Source: Cryptosporangium arvum DSM 44712
Lineage (GTDB): Bacteria; Actinomycetota; Actinomycetes; Mycobacteriales; Cryptosporangiaceae
Direction of reading: 5' to 3'
NCBI RefSeq assembly: GCF_000585375.1
Contig: NZ_KK073874.1
Location: 1,364,001-1,428,000, forward strand
DNA length: 64,000 bases
Shown: one piece after another, positions 44,401 to 51,684 of the stretch
Position numbering within the stretch: the first letter of the stretch is position 1
Layout: the number at the start of each line of letters is the position of its first letter
Translations under genes and position numbers: made by a program
Notes under the pieces: generated by a model
The model's database searches: none
What the model was told of the DNA's origin: nothing
Seen by the model: only the letters and a program-made list of their open reading frames with translations

Positions 44401-45195
<795 letters not shown>

Positions 45196-45251: not shown

Positions 45252-46088
45252 ATGGCTGACATCACCGCTCACCACGGCATCTTCAGGGACACCAAGCTCC
45301 ACGTGGACGACACGGGCGGTGCCGGGCGTCCGGTCGTGCTCGTGCACGGCTGGCCGCTGTCGGGAGAGTCGTTCAAGTACAACGTTCCGGCGCTCGAAGC
45401 GGCCGGCTACCGGGTGATCACCTACGACCGGCGTGGTTTCGGGCGCAGCGACAAGCCGCTGACCGGCTACTCCTACGACTCGCTGACGCAGGATCTGCAC
45501 ACGCTGCTCACCGAGCTCGAGCTGACCGACGTCACGGTCGTCGGGTTCTCGATGGGCGGCGGTGAGGTGGCCCGGTACTTCACCAGGTACGGGGCGGAGC
45601 GGCTGCGCAGCGTGGTGTTCGCGTCCGCCGTACCGCCGTATCTGGCGAAAACCCCGGACAACCCCGAGGGGCCGCTGGAGAAGTCCGCGATGGCGAAGAT
45701 GACCGCCGGTCTGACCGCGAACCAGCACAAGTTCTACGACCAGTTCATCACCGAGTTCTTCTCGGTGAACGGCGTGCCGGCGGTGACCGAGGCGCAGCGT
45801 CACGAGGCCCTGGAACTGGCCGGGCAGTCGTCGAAGGCCGCCGCGCTGGAAGCGATGACCGCGTTCGGCACCACGGACTTCCGCGACGACCTTCCGCGTG
45901 TGTCGGTTCCGGCCCTGGTGTTGCACGGCGACAGCGACGCGACCGTGCCGTTCGAGGGATCGGGGGCGCGGACGGTGAAGGCCGTGCCGCACGGCGAGCT
46001 GTATCTCGTCGCCGGTGGCCCGCACGGCTGCAACGTCAGTCACGCCGACGAGTGGAACGAGGCGTTGATCGCGTTCCTGGCCAAGTGA
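45252..46088 (+). CDS. Alpha/beta hydrolase (non-heme chloroperoxidase-like)
   Basis: A 278-residue hydrolase with oxyanion motif VLVHGWPLSGES near 30, YDRRGFGRSDKP near 58, the nucleophile in VVGFSMGGGEVARY near 98, catalytic aspartate in LHGDSDATVPF near 222 and histidine in GGPHGCNVSHADE near 255. This arrangement is typical of cofactor-free haloperoxidase/esterase enzymes; the natural substrate is unknown. A strong terminator follows. Confidence 0.9.
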   Translation: MADITAHHGIFRDTKLHVDDTGGAGRPVVLVHGWPLSGESFKYNVPALEAAGYRVITYDRRGFGRSDKPLTGYSYDSLTQDLHTLLTELELTDVTVVGFSMGGGEVARYFTRYGAERLRSVVFASAVPPYLAKTPDNPEGPLEKSAMAKMTAGLTANQHKFYDQFITEFFSVNGVPAVTEAQRHEALELAGQSSKAAALEAMTAFGTTDFRDDLPRVSVPALVLHGDSDATVPFEGSGARTVKAVPHGELYLVAGGPHGCNVSHADEWNEALIAFLAK

Positions 46089-46198: not shown

Positions 46199-46663
46199 TC
46201 AGACCTCTTCGCCGACGGGGTCGCGGAGCAGGCGGGGGAGGTAGACCGCGCCGGGGCCGGCGCCGGCCGCGCGGTCGCCGGGGTTGGAGAGCCGGCAGCG
46301 CTGCAGCGAGAGACATCCGCAGCCGATGCAGGAGTCGAGCCCGTCGCGCAGGGCCATCAGCGCGCTGATCTGCTCGTCGAGGCGCGACCGCCAGCTGCGC
46401 GAGAGCCGCGTCCAGTCCTGACGCGTCGGGGTGCGCCCGGCAGGCAGCGTGGCGAGCGCGTCGCGAACGTCCTCCAGGCTCAGCCCGACGTGGCGCGCGG
46501 CCCGGATGAACGCCAGCCTGCGCAGCACCGACCGGTGGTATCGGCGCTGGTTGCCCGTCGTGCGGGTGGCTTCGATCAACCCCACCCGCTCGTAGTAGCG
46601 CAGTGCCGACGGCGCGTGCCCACTGCGGTGCGAGACGTCGCCCATCGTGAGCAGATCGTTCAT
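46199..46663 (-). CDS. soxR: SoxR redox-sensing MerR regulator
   Basis: The 154-residue regulator has a MerR winged helix (about 5-75, with SALRYYERVGLI) and the SoxR cluster-binding motif CIGCGCLSLQRC with C112, C115, C117 and C123 (CX2CXCX5C). In actinomycetes SoxR senses redox-active metabolites such as quinones or phenazines through a [2Fe-2S] cluster. It is divergent from an SDR gene whose promoter carries a palindromic SoxR-like box. Confidence 0.93.
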   Translation of the reverse strand: MNDLLTMGDVSHRSGHAPSALRYYERVGLIEATRTTGNQRRYHRSVLRRLAFIRAARHVGLSLEDVRDALATLPAGRTPTRQDWTRLSRSWRSRLDEQISALMALRDGLDSCIGCGCLSLQRCRLSNPGDRAAGAGPGAVYLPRLLRDPVGEEV

Positions 46664-46679: not shown

Positions 46680-46710
46680 TTGACCTGAAGTCAACTTCAC
46701 TTTTTACCGT
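46680..46710 (+). promoter_or_regulatory. SoxR-type promoter with palindromic box
   Basis: A -35 element TTGACC (46680-46685) and a weak -10 TACCGT (46705-46710) are separated by 19 bases, the overlong spacer that MerR-family activators correct. Inside the spacer the dyad TGAAGT-CA-ACTTCA occupies 46686-46699. It directs transcription to the SDR/QueA-like pair. The elements match known SoxR logic; the binding is inferred. Confidence 0.75.
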
Positions 46711-46741
46711 ACCGGCAGCGCATCGACGAACGGAGAACATC

Positions 46742-47431
46742 ATGCCTGTCGGAATCATCACCGGTGCTTCGCGTGGACTCGGCCGGGTCACCGCGCTCGC
46801 GCTCGCGGCCCGCGGCTGGGACCTCGTCGTGGACGGCCGGGACGCGGCCGCCCTCGATCGCGCGGTCGCCGAGTTCCGCAGCCGCGGGGGACCGGGAACA
46901 CAGGTGCTGGCGGTTCCCGGCGACGTCGGCGAACCGTCGCACCGCGCGACGCTGGCCCGCGTCGCCCGCACGCTCGGCCCGGTGGACCTGCTCGTCAACA
47001 ACGCGAGCACGCTCGGCCCGATGCCGCCGCTCGCGGACTACCCGCTGCACCGGCTGGCGTCGGTGCTCGCGGTGAACGTGCTCGCGCCGCTCGGCCTGAT
47101 CCAGCTGCTCGACTCCGTCGACACCGTGATCAACGTCAGTTCGGACGCCGCCGTCGAGGCCTACCCGAACTGGGGCGGCTACGGGGCCAGCAAGGCCGCG
47201 CTCGACCACCTGTCGGCCGTACTCGCGGTGGAGCGGGCCGACCTCCGGGTGTATGCGTTCGACCCGGGTGACATGCGGACCGCGATGCACCAGGAAGCGT
47301 TCCCGGGCGAGGACATCTCGGACCGGCCGGAACCGGAGACGGTCGTGCCTGCGTTGCTCCGGCTGGTGTCCGAGCGGCCGCCGAGCGGACGGTACCGGGC
47401 CTCCGACCTGCTGGCGGGGGTGACCGCGTGA
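46742..47431 (+). CDS. SDR oxidoreductase, likely SoxR target
   Basis: A 229-residue SDR with TGASRGLG at residues 7-14, NNAS near 83, a serine in VINVSSDAA near 126 and YGASKAALD near 142. A divergent Asp/Arg pair after the glycine motif (VVDGRDAAA) suggests NADP(H). Quinone-like or aldehyde substrates would fit SoxR control but this is inference. ATG 46742 follows the promoter by 32 bases. The stop overlaps the GTG of the QueA-like gene. Confidence 0.88.
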   Translation: MPVGIITGASRGLGRVTALALAARGWDLVVDGRDAAALDRAVAEFRSRGGPGTQVLAVPGDVGEPSHRATLARVARTLGPVDLLVNNASTLGPMPPLADYPLHRLASVLAVNVLAPLGLIQLLDSVDTVINVSSDAAVEAYPNWGGYGASKAALDHLSAVLAVERADLRVYAFDPGDMRTAMHQEAFPGEDISDRPEPETVVPALLRLVSERPPSGRYRASDLLAGVTA

Positions 47432-48459
47432 AACCCAGCACGGTGTTCACCCTGCCCGCCGACGCCGACGCCCACGAACCCCCGGAGGCGCGGGGATCGG
47501 CCCGGGACGAGGTCCGGCTGCTCGTCGCCTCGCCGTCCGGTCTGACGTCCACCCGGTTCGGGCGGCTGCCCGCCTACCTCGAGCCGGGCGACCTGGTGGT
47601 CGTCAACACCTCGGCGACGCTCCCGGCCGCCGTCGACGGCCACCGTCCCGACGGCACCCCGGTGGTGATCCACTTCTCGGCGCCCCGCGGGGCCGGCTGG
47701 GTGGTGGAGGTACGGGTTCCGGACGGGTCCGGCCCGGTGCTCGACGGGGTGAGCGGCGAACGGATCGCGGTTCCGGGCGGGGCCGGCCTGACGCTGCGCG
47801 AGCCGGCCGACGAGCGTGCGCACGGCGTGCGGCTCTGGACCGCGGACGTCGCGCTCGAAGGGCCCGTCGAGGCCTGGCTGAACCGTCACGGACGCCCGAT
47901 CACCTACAGCTACCTGCACGGACGCTGGCCACTCTCCGACTACCAGCCGGTCTTCGCCCGGGAGCCAGGCAGCGCCGAGATGGCCAGCGCCGGGCGCCCG
48001 TTCACCGACCGCCTGGTCACCGACCTGGTCACCCGGGGCGTCGCGGTGGCCCCGGTGCTCCTGCACACCGGCGTCTCGTCGCCGGAGGCCGGCGAGGGGC
48101 CGCAGACCGAGTGGTTCCGCGTGCCCGCCGCCACCGCGCGCCTGGTGCGGTCGACACGCGACGCCGGGGGTCGGGTGGTCGCGGTCGGCACGACCGTCAC
48201 CCGTGCGTTGGAGAGCGCGGTCGACGAGACCGGGCGGGTGCGCGCGGCCGAGGGCTGGACCGACCTCGTGATCGGCCCGGACCACCCGCCTCGCGTGGTG
48301 AACGGGCTGGTCACCGGCTGGCACACGCCCGAGGCCTCCCACCTGCTGCTCCTCGAAGCCGTCGCGGGCCCCGGCCTCGTGCAGGCCGCCTACCGCGCCG
48401 CCGTCGCCGAGCGGTACCGCTGGCACGAGTTCGGCGACAGCTGCCTACTGCTCCCCTGA
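47428..48459 (+). CDS. QueA-like SAM:tRNA ribosyltransferase-isomerase family protein
   Basis: The 343-residue protein belongs to the QueA family: LEPGDLVVVNTSATLPAA near 50, SYLHGRWPLSDYQPVFA near 156 and MASAGRPFTDRLVTDL near 180, together with GTTVTRALES near 254 are recognisable. True QueA makes epoxyqueuosine in tRNA; the changes around the SAGLHFT motif (here SAGRPFT) suggest a divergent actinobacterial paralogue whose substrate may differ. No queuosine pathway gene is nearby. It is coupled to the SDR gene and overlaps a convergent gene by 15 bases. Confidence 0.8.
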   Translation: MKPSTVFTLPADADAHEPPEARGSARDEVRLLVASPSGLTSTRFGRLPAYLEPGDLVVVNTSATLPAAVDGHRPDGTPVVIHFSAPRGAGWVVEVRVPDGSGPVLDGVSGERIAVPGGAGLTLREPADERAHGVRLWTADVALEGPVEAWLNRHGRPITYSYLHGRWPLSDYQPVFAREPGSAEMASAGRPFTDRLVTDLVTRGVAVAPVLLHTGVSSPEAGEGPQTEWFRVPAATARLVRSTRDAGGRVVAVGTTVTRALESAVDETGRVRAAEGWTDLVIGPDHPPRVVNGLVTGWHTPEASHLLLLEAVAGPGLVQAAYRAAVAERYRWHEFGDSCLLLP

Positions 48460-50372: not shown

Positions 50373-51545
50373 TCAGTGCGCCCGGGGTGCCTCGGTCTTT
50401 TCGAGCGCCGCGGTCGCGCCGTCCGCGGTGGTGTCGTCCGCGGTGGTGTCGTCCGCGGTGGTGTCGTCCGCGGTCGTGCCGTTCGCGGCGGGGGCGGAGC
50501 GGGCGTCGCGGCGGGCCTGGAGTAGCCACCACCAGCCGCTGAGGGCCGCGCCGAGGCTGAAGCCCAGAAGTGCGGTGGTGAGGAGGCGGGCGACGGGACC
50601 GGGCCACGGCACCGCCGGGACAGCGTGCGCGAATGTCTCGTAATCCGGCAGCCCGCCCAGCAGCGCGAGACACACCCCGGCGAAGGCCAGCGCGAACGGG
50701 CCCGCGTCCGTACCGCGGATCGTGACCACCGCCGCCGCCAGCGCGGCCAGCGACACCAGCAGGCCCACACCCTGCCCGGTCAGCACCCCGGTGACGACAC
50801 CGAACCCGGTCGAGCCCGCGACGATCGTGCGCCCCACCGCGTCGGCGAGTTCGGCCAGCGCCGCCACCCCGAGCGCGCCGGCGACGAGAAGGCGCGCGGC
50901 CGGACGTCGGCCCCAGAAGTAGGTGACCGCGAACAGGGCGGCCGCCGCCAGCACGACCGCGGCCCACCACAGCGTGGGCGTGGGTGGTGGCTCGTAGTCG
51001 AGGGTGCCGCTGACCGTGGTCGGGGTGCCGGCCACGACGAGCGCGACCGTCCAGGACGCGAGGCGATGCGACGACGCCGGGGCGGCGGTGACGGCCGGCG
51101 GCGGGCTGGTGCTCATCCAGTGCGAGCGATGGTCGTGCCAGCGCACCACCCGCTCCGAGCTGACCTTCTGCCACTGCGGCGCGGCGGCGGTGTCGACGCG
51201 GGCGCTCGCCGGGACCGGGCTCTTGCCGTCGGCGGTGGCGTTGATCCAGGTGGCGGGCGAGCGGGTGTTCGTCCAGACGCCGTCGGCCGAGATCTTGAGG
51301 TAGGGCTCGCCGGAGTAGCCCCGGACCTCGACGTCCTGGGTGGTGTCGCTGCGCAGCTCGAGGCGCGCGCCGTTCTCGATGACGTGCACCGTGACGTCGT
51401 CGGTCGACGGGGTGACCGCGGTGATCGCGGTGCGGTAGTCGGTCGCCTCGGGTTTCGCGTCGGCGCCGTGGGCCCGGGCCGGCGCCGCGGTTCCCAGCAG
51501 CAGCGCGACCACGACCGCGAGCAGGGTGACGACGGTTCGCTGCAT
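50373..51545 (-). CDS. Conserved exported membrane protein, unknown
   Basis: The 390-residue protein has a signal peptide (1-26, ending APARAHG), an extracellular beta-rich domain of about 170 residues with VTVHVIENGARLELRSDTT and GYSGEPYLKISADGVW, four to five membrane helices (about 205-345), and a Thr/Ala/Asp repeat tail (TTADD). No catalytic motif is visible. Similar actinobacterial proteins are annotated only as hypothetical. ATG 51545 was chosen because the signal peptide follows. Confidence 0.75.
   Translation of the reverse strand: MQRTVVTLLAVVVALLLGTAAPARAHGADAKPEATDYRTAITAVTPSTDDVTVHVIENGARLELRSDTTQDVEVRGYSGEPYLKISADGVWTNTRSPATWINATADGKSPVPASARVDTAAAPQWQKVSSERVVRWHDHRSHWMSTSPPPAVTAAPASSHRLASWTVALVVAGTPTTVSGTLDYEPPPTPTLWWAAVVLAAAALFAVTYFWGRRPAARLLVAGALGVAALAELADAVGRTIVAGSTGFGVVTGVLTGQGVGLLVSLAALAAAVVTIRGTDAGPFALAFAGVCLALLGGLPDYETFAHAVPAVPWPGPVARLLTTALLGFSLGAALSGWWWLLQARRDARSAPAANGTTADDTTADDTTADDTTADGATAALEKTEAPRAH
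50421..50480. repeat. 15-bp tandem repeat in the membrane-protein tail
   Basis: Four copies close to GTCCGCGGTGGTGTC run in frame and encode the repeated Thr-Thr-Ala-Asp-Asp tail; the last copy differs at two positions. Confidence 0.9.
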
Positions 51546-51684
51546 GGCCCCAGCATATCTGCCCTGTTCAGCGGCCTCTTCGACGAATTCCGGAAAGCTC
51601 GTGAACCACTCCCGTCGCATTTCCGTGTGATGGGCGTGGGCAAACTCCGAAGCTCATCCGGGTGCGCCGGACACAGGAGAAGCA

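Follow-up and report, generated by a model that had tools for sequence, protein, structure and literature searches.

What reaction could a relative of the queuosine enzyme QueA carry out when its gene is joined to that of an SDR family oxidoreductase and placed behind a promoter of the SoxR type? The question is raised by a locus of Cryptosporangium arvum DSM 44712, situated in a window of 64,000 nucleotides, the whole stretch of DNA that was analysed, within a 9.2 Mb genome assembled as a single contig.

Layout of the locus and its promoter

The soxR gene (46199-46663, minus strand) encodes a redox-sensing MerR-family activator of 154 aa. On the opposite strand, a -35 hexamer, TTGACC (46680-46685), and a -10 hexamer, TACCGT (46705-46710), can be read in the sequence, oriented towards the SDR gene and separated by a 19-bp spacer (46686-46704) which holds the perfect SoxR-box dyad TGAAGT-CA-ACTTCA (TGAAGTCAACTTCA, 46686-46699). 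A Shine-Dalgarno-like GGAGA recognised by eye (46732-46736, plus strand) lies 5 nt ahead of the ATG at 46742 that opens the SDR gene (46742-47431, plus strand, 229 aa). The stop of this gene overlaps by 4 nt (47428-47431) the GTG start of the third gene (47428-48459, plus strand), which encodes a 343 aa protein of the PF02547 superfamily. Both the spacer with its dyad between soxR and the SDR gene and the coupling of the QueA-like gene to the latter, as described in an earlier note on this DNA, are present.

The dyad by itself is modestly unusual, with one exact match within the window, since 0.33 matches are expected when two mismatches are allowed; at least one match was obtained in 29 of 100 shuffles. 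Joined with the -35 hexamer, it stands out in the genome. The combined pattern TTGACYTSAAGTNNACTTSA, with up to two mismatches, has eight matches in 9.2 Mb, against none for the reversed control, and the sole mismatch-free match is the soxR-SDR intergenic site.

The regulator scores 198.1 bits against the SoxR profile TIGR01950 (cut-off 116.9) and is the only one of 23 matches to this profile in the genome to exceed the cut-off. It carries CIGCGCLSLQRC, which corresponds to the CX2CXCX5C iron-sulphur cluster ligands, and the four cysteines are kept in 65 of 66 linked SoxR rows. Its closest solved structure is that of Escherichia coli SoxR (2zhg, E 5.9e-42). The SDR matches PF00106 with 112.2 bits (cut-off 26.6), and TGASRGLG and S..YGASK motifs, the latter supplying the Ser-Tyr-Lys motif, were found in it by eye.

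Additional features were recorded around the operon. An alpha/beta hydrolase gene separates soxR from a SAM hydroxide adenosyltransferase-like gene in the window (genes at 44401-45195, minus strand, and 45252-46088, plus strand), and a gene of the latter kind directly follows soxR in two other genomes, G026 and G036 (loci L002 and L043). It was considered as a part of the module and rejected, its cluster being present in only 3 of 42 loci. A 15-bp tandem array of 5.4 copies (50408-50488) lies inside a minus-strand ORF (50373-51620).

The gene pair and its regulators across genomes

The SDR gene and the gene of the QueA paralogue constitute a real module, with near-universal pairing. Comparison within the order covered 50 loci, drawn from 49 of the 59 genomes that gave a match (the matches in G008, G013, G033, G035, G064, G069, G088, G104, G118 and G123 were left out, as was the second one in G146). 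In all 50, the SDR gene precedes the QueA-like gene on the same strand; the two are adjacent in 49, with an overlap of exactly 4 nt in 46, the exception being L053, where a gap of 970 bases lies between them. A wider scan, restricted to one genome per species, found at least 591 relatives, of which 80 were retained; at least five of these 80 loci near-duplicate order loci (zero-length pairs). An SDR gene was found on the same strand no more than 900 bases upstream in 79 of them, the 80th beginning at a contig end, and a start of the QueA-like gene is readable at the SDR stop -3 in 61 of the 79. Genes in these neighbourhoods were called from codon composition rather than with a gene finder. The wider relatives belong mostly to Actinomycetota, with others in Chloroflexota, Gemmatimonadota, Acidobacteriota, Deinococcota, Bacteroidota and Dormibacterota. 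Two genomes of the order hold the QueA-like gene in pieces (G033:C20:104268-105298 and G035:C9:496485-497511), and it may be decaying or misassembled there, because one piece in each has an in-frame stop.

A divergent soxR gene accompanies the pair in 38 of 50 order loci and 28 of 80 wider loci, one further soxR being truncated. None was seen in 12 order loci and 51 wider loci (five of these 51 have less than 700 bases upstream), so the pair does not require SoxR. At the level of genomes, SoxR is present in 52 of the 57 with the paralogue, compared with 81 of the 143 others of the order. The strict box pattern has been detected in 51 of the 67 soxR-linked upstream regions, as against 7 of 51 regions without soxR or a strong kinase match and none of 11 kinase-linked regions. 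The complete layout of -35, dyad, 19-bp spacer and -10 can be laid on all 67 soxR-linked regions, directed towards the SDR gene. In each of these rows the -10 hexamer has A at position 2 and T at position 6, both letters being counted in the anchor score, and the 8-bp arms match at 6.2 of 8 positions against 0.6-2.2 when slid, on an anchor chosen for these features. The layout columns are therefore inflated, as the TTGA anchor is present by construction and the arms and -10 letters also entered the score, and the strict-box count is the stricter measure. The predicted control of the operon by SoxR, which the earlier note had proposed, is well supported by this comparison across loci.

The linked actinobacterial SoxRs form one clade, both in a tree with 66 of these rows (96/91) and in one with 22 (100/97), the latter comprising every third linked SoxR, with two long canonical rows left out. 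All actinobacterial soxR-linked rows lie within one fork of 93 rows, 67 linked and 26 without soxR, so these loci are not independent of each other. The same triad of soxR, SDR and QueA-like genes, in the same order, occurs in all three Rhizobium plasmid records examined, and the box, read in two of them, has TTGACT with a 19-bp spacer. The rhizobial SoxR groups with proteobacterial SoxRs (100/99), near which no QueA-like gene was found within the 5.4 kb fetched. A second recruitment is suggested by this SoxR of another lineage; the triad was probably recruited twice, in Actinobacteria and, separately, in Rhizobium. The place of the rhizobial paralogue in its own tree is unsure because of a branch length of 3.7. 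A sister relationship between the rhizobial and the actinobacterial linked SoxRs, obtained with few outgroups, was overturned on adding ten SoxRs, nine proteobacterial and one from Streptomyces.

SoxR/MerR-like boxes were also seen by eye before the SDR gene in soxR-less loci of Amycolatopsis, Nocardia and Skermania (boxed loci L100, L106, L111, L123, L124, L130, L131, L145, L149, L151 and L159), so a regulator encoded elsewhere may control these pairs. A dioxygenase cluster lies behind soxR in five Geodermatophilus loci; the one scanned, from Geodermatophilus africanus (L126, 3841-4644, minus strand), matches 4,5-DOPA-extradiol-dioxygenase with 315.1 bits (cut-off 233).

A different type of partner, a GAF kinase of more than 100 bits with a response regulator, adjoins the pair in 11 of the 80 wider loci. 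A DevS-like GAF kinase with a response regulator was recorded beside the pair in L057 (5737-7480), L134, L153, L155, L158, L162, L163, L167, L174, L175 and L177, and most of these have the palindrome described below upstream of the SDR gene. Among the 12 order loci that lack soxR, a cluster c4 response regulator is encoded nearby in seven, that of L054 looking OmpR-like, and a cluster c5 kinase in four; c4 or c5 is also present, at a greater distance, in four order loci with soxR. The L057 kinase matches GAF structures of DevS/DosT (2vzw, E 2.6e-31), and its regulator matches NarL-type regulators, among them DevR (3c3w). A GGTCCTAGGACC-like palindrome, matching at 10 or more of 12 positions, is found upstream in 15 of 18 kinase/regulator loci and in none of the 67 soxR-linked ones, with 4 of 44 other loci and 4 of 360 shuffles as controls, a post hoc count in which the palindrome was picked from the same loci. 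We take the DevS type of partner, partly from a PDB title, to be a redox or gas sensor. That both SoxR and the DevS-like partners are sensors of this kind is in our view the best clue to the role of the pair. Against the redox-response module proposed below, hypoxia or NO would suit a DevS-like partner no less well than quinones.

Other genes behind the same box have been found as well. An extended pattern gave 19 matches over 20 genomes and none when reversed; 15 were at the SDR-QueA operon, whose own box it missed in 5 of the 20. As the pattern was derived from these operons, the four remaining matches are the informative part: two ABC transporters, 75.7% identical, in G000 and G107, a PPOX-like protein (G107) and a methyltransferase-like protein (G036), named by eye or by homology. 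Their homologues in the window genome (53.6% and 53.4%) likewise follow weaker boxes. The family scan of the window genome placed boxes before genes for an ABC exporter, a flavin reductase, a PPOX/F420 protein and an SgcJ/EcaC-family protein. Boxes with two mismatches in this genome were not counted as SoxR sites, because they may serve regulators of the MerR family other than SoxR; at L066 a divergent MerR gene is present. The SgcJ/EcaC gene is not equated with ecaC, since ecaC is called an epimerase/dehydratase in PMC4146615.

The QueA paralogue and the queuosine pathway

The third gene encodes a QueA paralogue, not QueA. Its product belongs to the PF02547 superfamily (243.6 bits, gathering cut-off 25) and falls short of both QueA equivalog cut-offs, with 132.8 of 267.45 bits for TIGR00113 and 173.8 of 324 for NF001140, which bears out its description in the earlier note as a divergent QueA-family protein. 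In an AlphaFold2 model (pLDDT 89.5), the top Foldseek matches are the solved QueA structures 1vky, 1yy3 and 1wdi (E 1e-22 to 1e-23). Superposition on these three gives TM values of 0.53-0.66 and an rmsd of 8.6-10.1 over the whole chain; the domain arrangement or gaps therefore differ from those of QueA.

When 130 paralogues were aligned with 8 true QueA proteins, a common core could be told from residues specific to either group. R26, R30, D55, N60, H213, E228, R259, E262, H299, D337 and others (window numbering) are common to both, and the paralogues alone have H82, E94, R135, Y160, E184, R190, S218, H305, H333 and E334 as invariant or almost invariant residues. The core aside, many positions identical in all 8 true QueA proteins are replaced in the 130 paralogues. 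The two rhizobial paralogues in the alignment keep Y160, E184, H305, H333 and E334 and have lost core residues, for example G181 and H213, so their chemistry may differ. In a quick tree of PF02547 proteins (SH-aLRT only, midpoint root), the neighbours of the window paralogue are actinobacterial, and the 8 true QueA together with two plasmid homologues are set apart on a branch of 1.52 with support 100. These homologues, on Geobacillus and Streptococcus salivarius plasmids (L094, 2932-3966, and L180, 4995-6041), adjoin thymidylate synthase and PqqD-family genes; they share E184, R190 and E334 with the paralogues and form a third group with an intermediate motif.

The earlier note had remarked that no queuosine genes lie nearby. 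For TGT and QueC, this holds genome-wide, neither being found in a search of the whole window genome for these two genes. The role of QueA after TGT, on preQ1-tRNA, is accordingly not matched in this genome, and an assay of tRNA queuosine, once suggested as a test, is unsuited to it because both genes are absent. Relatives in Rhizobium are annotated as tRNA ribosyltransferase-isomerase, which contrasts with a window genome without TGT and QueC. Among 200 genomes of the order, PF02547 proteins occur in 57 and TGT in 43, with 42 above the cut-off. Twelve genomes of the wider scan were checked, and eight have two PF02547 proteins, one scoring 394-458 bits (true QueA by score) and the other 247-274 bits; TGT matches are present in all eight, full-length in seven and in pieces in one. 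In the other four the paralogue is the lone PF02547 protein, and three of these genomes have no TGT.

Proposed function and known systems

That the pair sits behind a SoxR-like promoter and stays together across many bacteria suggests that the response to redox-active compounds includes a chemical step not described before. We consider it an even chance that the locus is a two-enzyme redox-response module switched by SoxR, in which the paralogue moves a SAM-derived group to an acceptor other than preQ1-tRNA. Redox-active small molecules would oxidise SoxR, the 19-bp spacer would be remodelled, and the SDR and the paralogue would be switched on, the overlap of their genes coupling their translation. 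The paralogue would bind SAM through the conserved QueA core and transfer a SAM-derived ribosyl or rearranged cyclopentyl group to its acceptor, while the SDR may reduce a carbonyl or quinone to furnish that acceptor, or may finish the product. The ABC exporter with the same box could then remove the product, completing a route of reduction, capping and export. We infer SoxR activation, the use of SAM, the acceptor and the order of the steps; SAM-dependent ribosyl transfer is what the kept core residues lead us to expect. More tentatively, since we rate this below the module itself, the paralogue may represent a new class of SAM-dependent enzyme, which caps a redox-active small molecule or builds a protective one with the rearranged ribose of SAM, and which would have been recruited repeatedly with its SDR under redox sensors: SoxR in Actinobacteria and separately in Rhizobium, DevS-like kinases elsewhere.

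It is also conceivable, if unlikely, that the pair modifies RNA, with the paralogue acting on another tRNA or rRNA nucleoside during redox stress and the SDR completing the modification. The QueA fold is kept in the model, to our knowledge every characterised homologue acts on tRNA, and four genomes (G041, G107, G134 and G209) have TGT with the paralogue as their only PF02547 protein, which also counts against the preferred reading. Against this, the window genome has neither TGT nor QueC, and within the order the paralogue and TGT avoid each other, TGT being present in 3 of 57 paralogue genomes and in 40 of 143 without it (Fisher p = 2e-4, phylogeny ignored). The paralogues have other residues where QueA has H223, M225, N299 and S336 (E. 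coli numbering), and we know of no SDR that belongs to the queuosine pathway. Similarly improbable is a role of the pair in making a protective compound of the cell itself, a metabolite or cofactor such as a SAM-derived cyclopentitol or ribosyl compound, rather than in acting on a foreign redox-active compound. The gene is usually present in one copy per genome and kept over many families and several phyla, and DevS-like control elsewhere would fit an internal redox or oxygen state; however, genes for an exporter, a flavin reductase and PPOX-type proteins also stand behind the box, which a response to redox-active metabolites would lead one to expect.

Much less probable is that the box serves soxR itself and that its link to the pair is inherited synteny without regulatory meaning. 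All linked rows of Actinobacteria do come from one fork, and autoregulation may apply to about 13% of the soxR genes in Streptomyces (PMC4146615), yet the -35 and -10 hexamers can be laid towards the SDR gene in every soxR-linked row and Rhizobium has the same arrangement with another SoxR lineage. An ordinary queuosine QueA is hardly credible despite the PF02547 match, and this identity was rejected on the cut-off scores, the absence of TGT and QueC, the higher-scoring PF02547 protein coexisting in 8 of 12 genomes and the split in the quick tree.

With two defined genes behind the promoter of a redox sensor, the locus, which we prefer to read as a SoxR-switched module, is a practical starting point for identifying the reaction. 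Should the acceptor prove to be a small molecule, the chemistry of QueA would reach beyond tRNA, and a SoxR response would gain a conjugation step alongside reductases and exporters. The earlier note regarded a QueA relative in a redox-metabolite response as new, and no such SoxR target was found in the available text of the open-licence PMC subset. The available parts of three rhizobial papers (PMC8552645, PMC10315480, PMC13295618) and a MerR paper (PMC5045206) do not mention the SDR-QueA pair; QueA and SoxR, or ribosyltransferase-isomerase, are treated apart in those of PMC9508795, PMC7118207, PMC8144621 and PMC3759002. PMC1282579, as far as available, names no QueA relative as a SoxR target, in a search that did not exhaust the literature on the QueA active site.

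Set beside known systems, the locus combines familiar parts in a different way. The paralogue shares its best fold matches and conserved core residues with QueA (TIGR00113, NF001140), from which it differs in having an SDR partner, a genome without TGT or QueC and invariant residues of its own. The enterobacterial SoxR box, CTCAAGT/ACTTGAG, compares with TGAAGT/ACTTCA in the window dyad. The L057 kinase and regulator resemble DevS/DosT and DevR of the DevS/DevR (DosS/DosR) system, which is a partner of other loci and not of the window, and the palindrome found there is unlike the OsdR consensus AGGGCCGATCGGCCCT given in PMC5069765. An ABC transporter and a flavoprotein reductase are among the genes that SoxR controls in Streptomyces coelicolor (PMC4146615), and the window genome resembles this regulon in its MerR-type box spacing and in its boxed ABC transporter and flavin reductase genes; the six genes of that regulon, as given in the available part of the paper, include no SDR-QueA pair, and the window soxR, unlike that of S. 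coelicolor, is divergent from its target. In Vibrio cholerae, queuosine has been reported to tune the SoxR regulon through translation of the SoxR-repressing Rsx complex (PMC12503941). Queuosine enzymes are connected with SoxR in both cases, whereas the QueA paralogue of the window is probably itself a target of SoxR, and TGT is missing from its genome.
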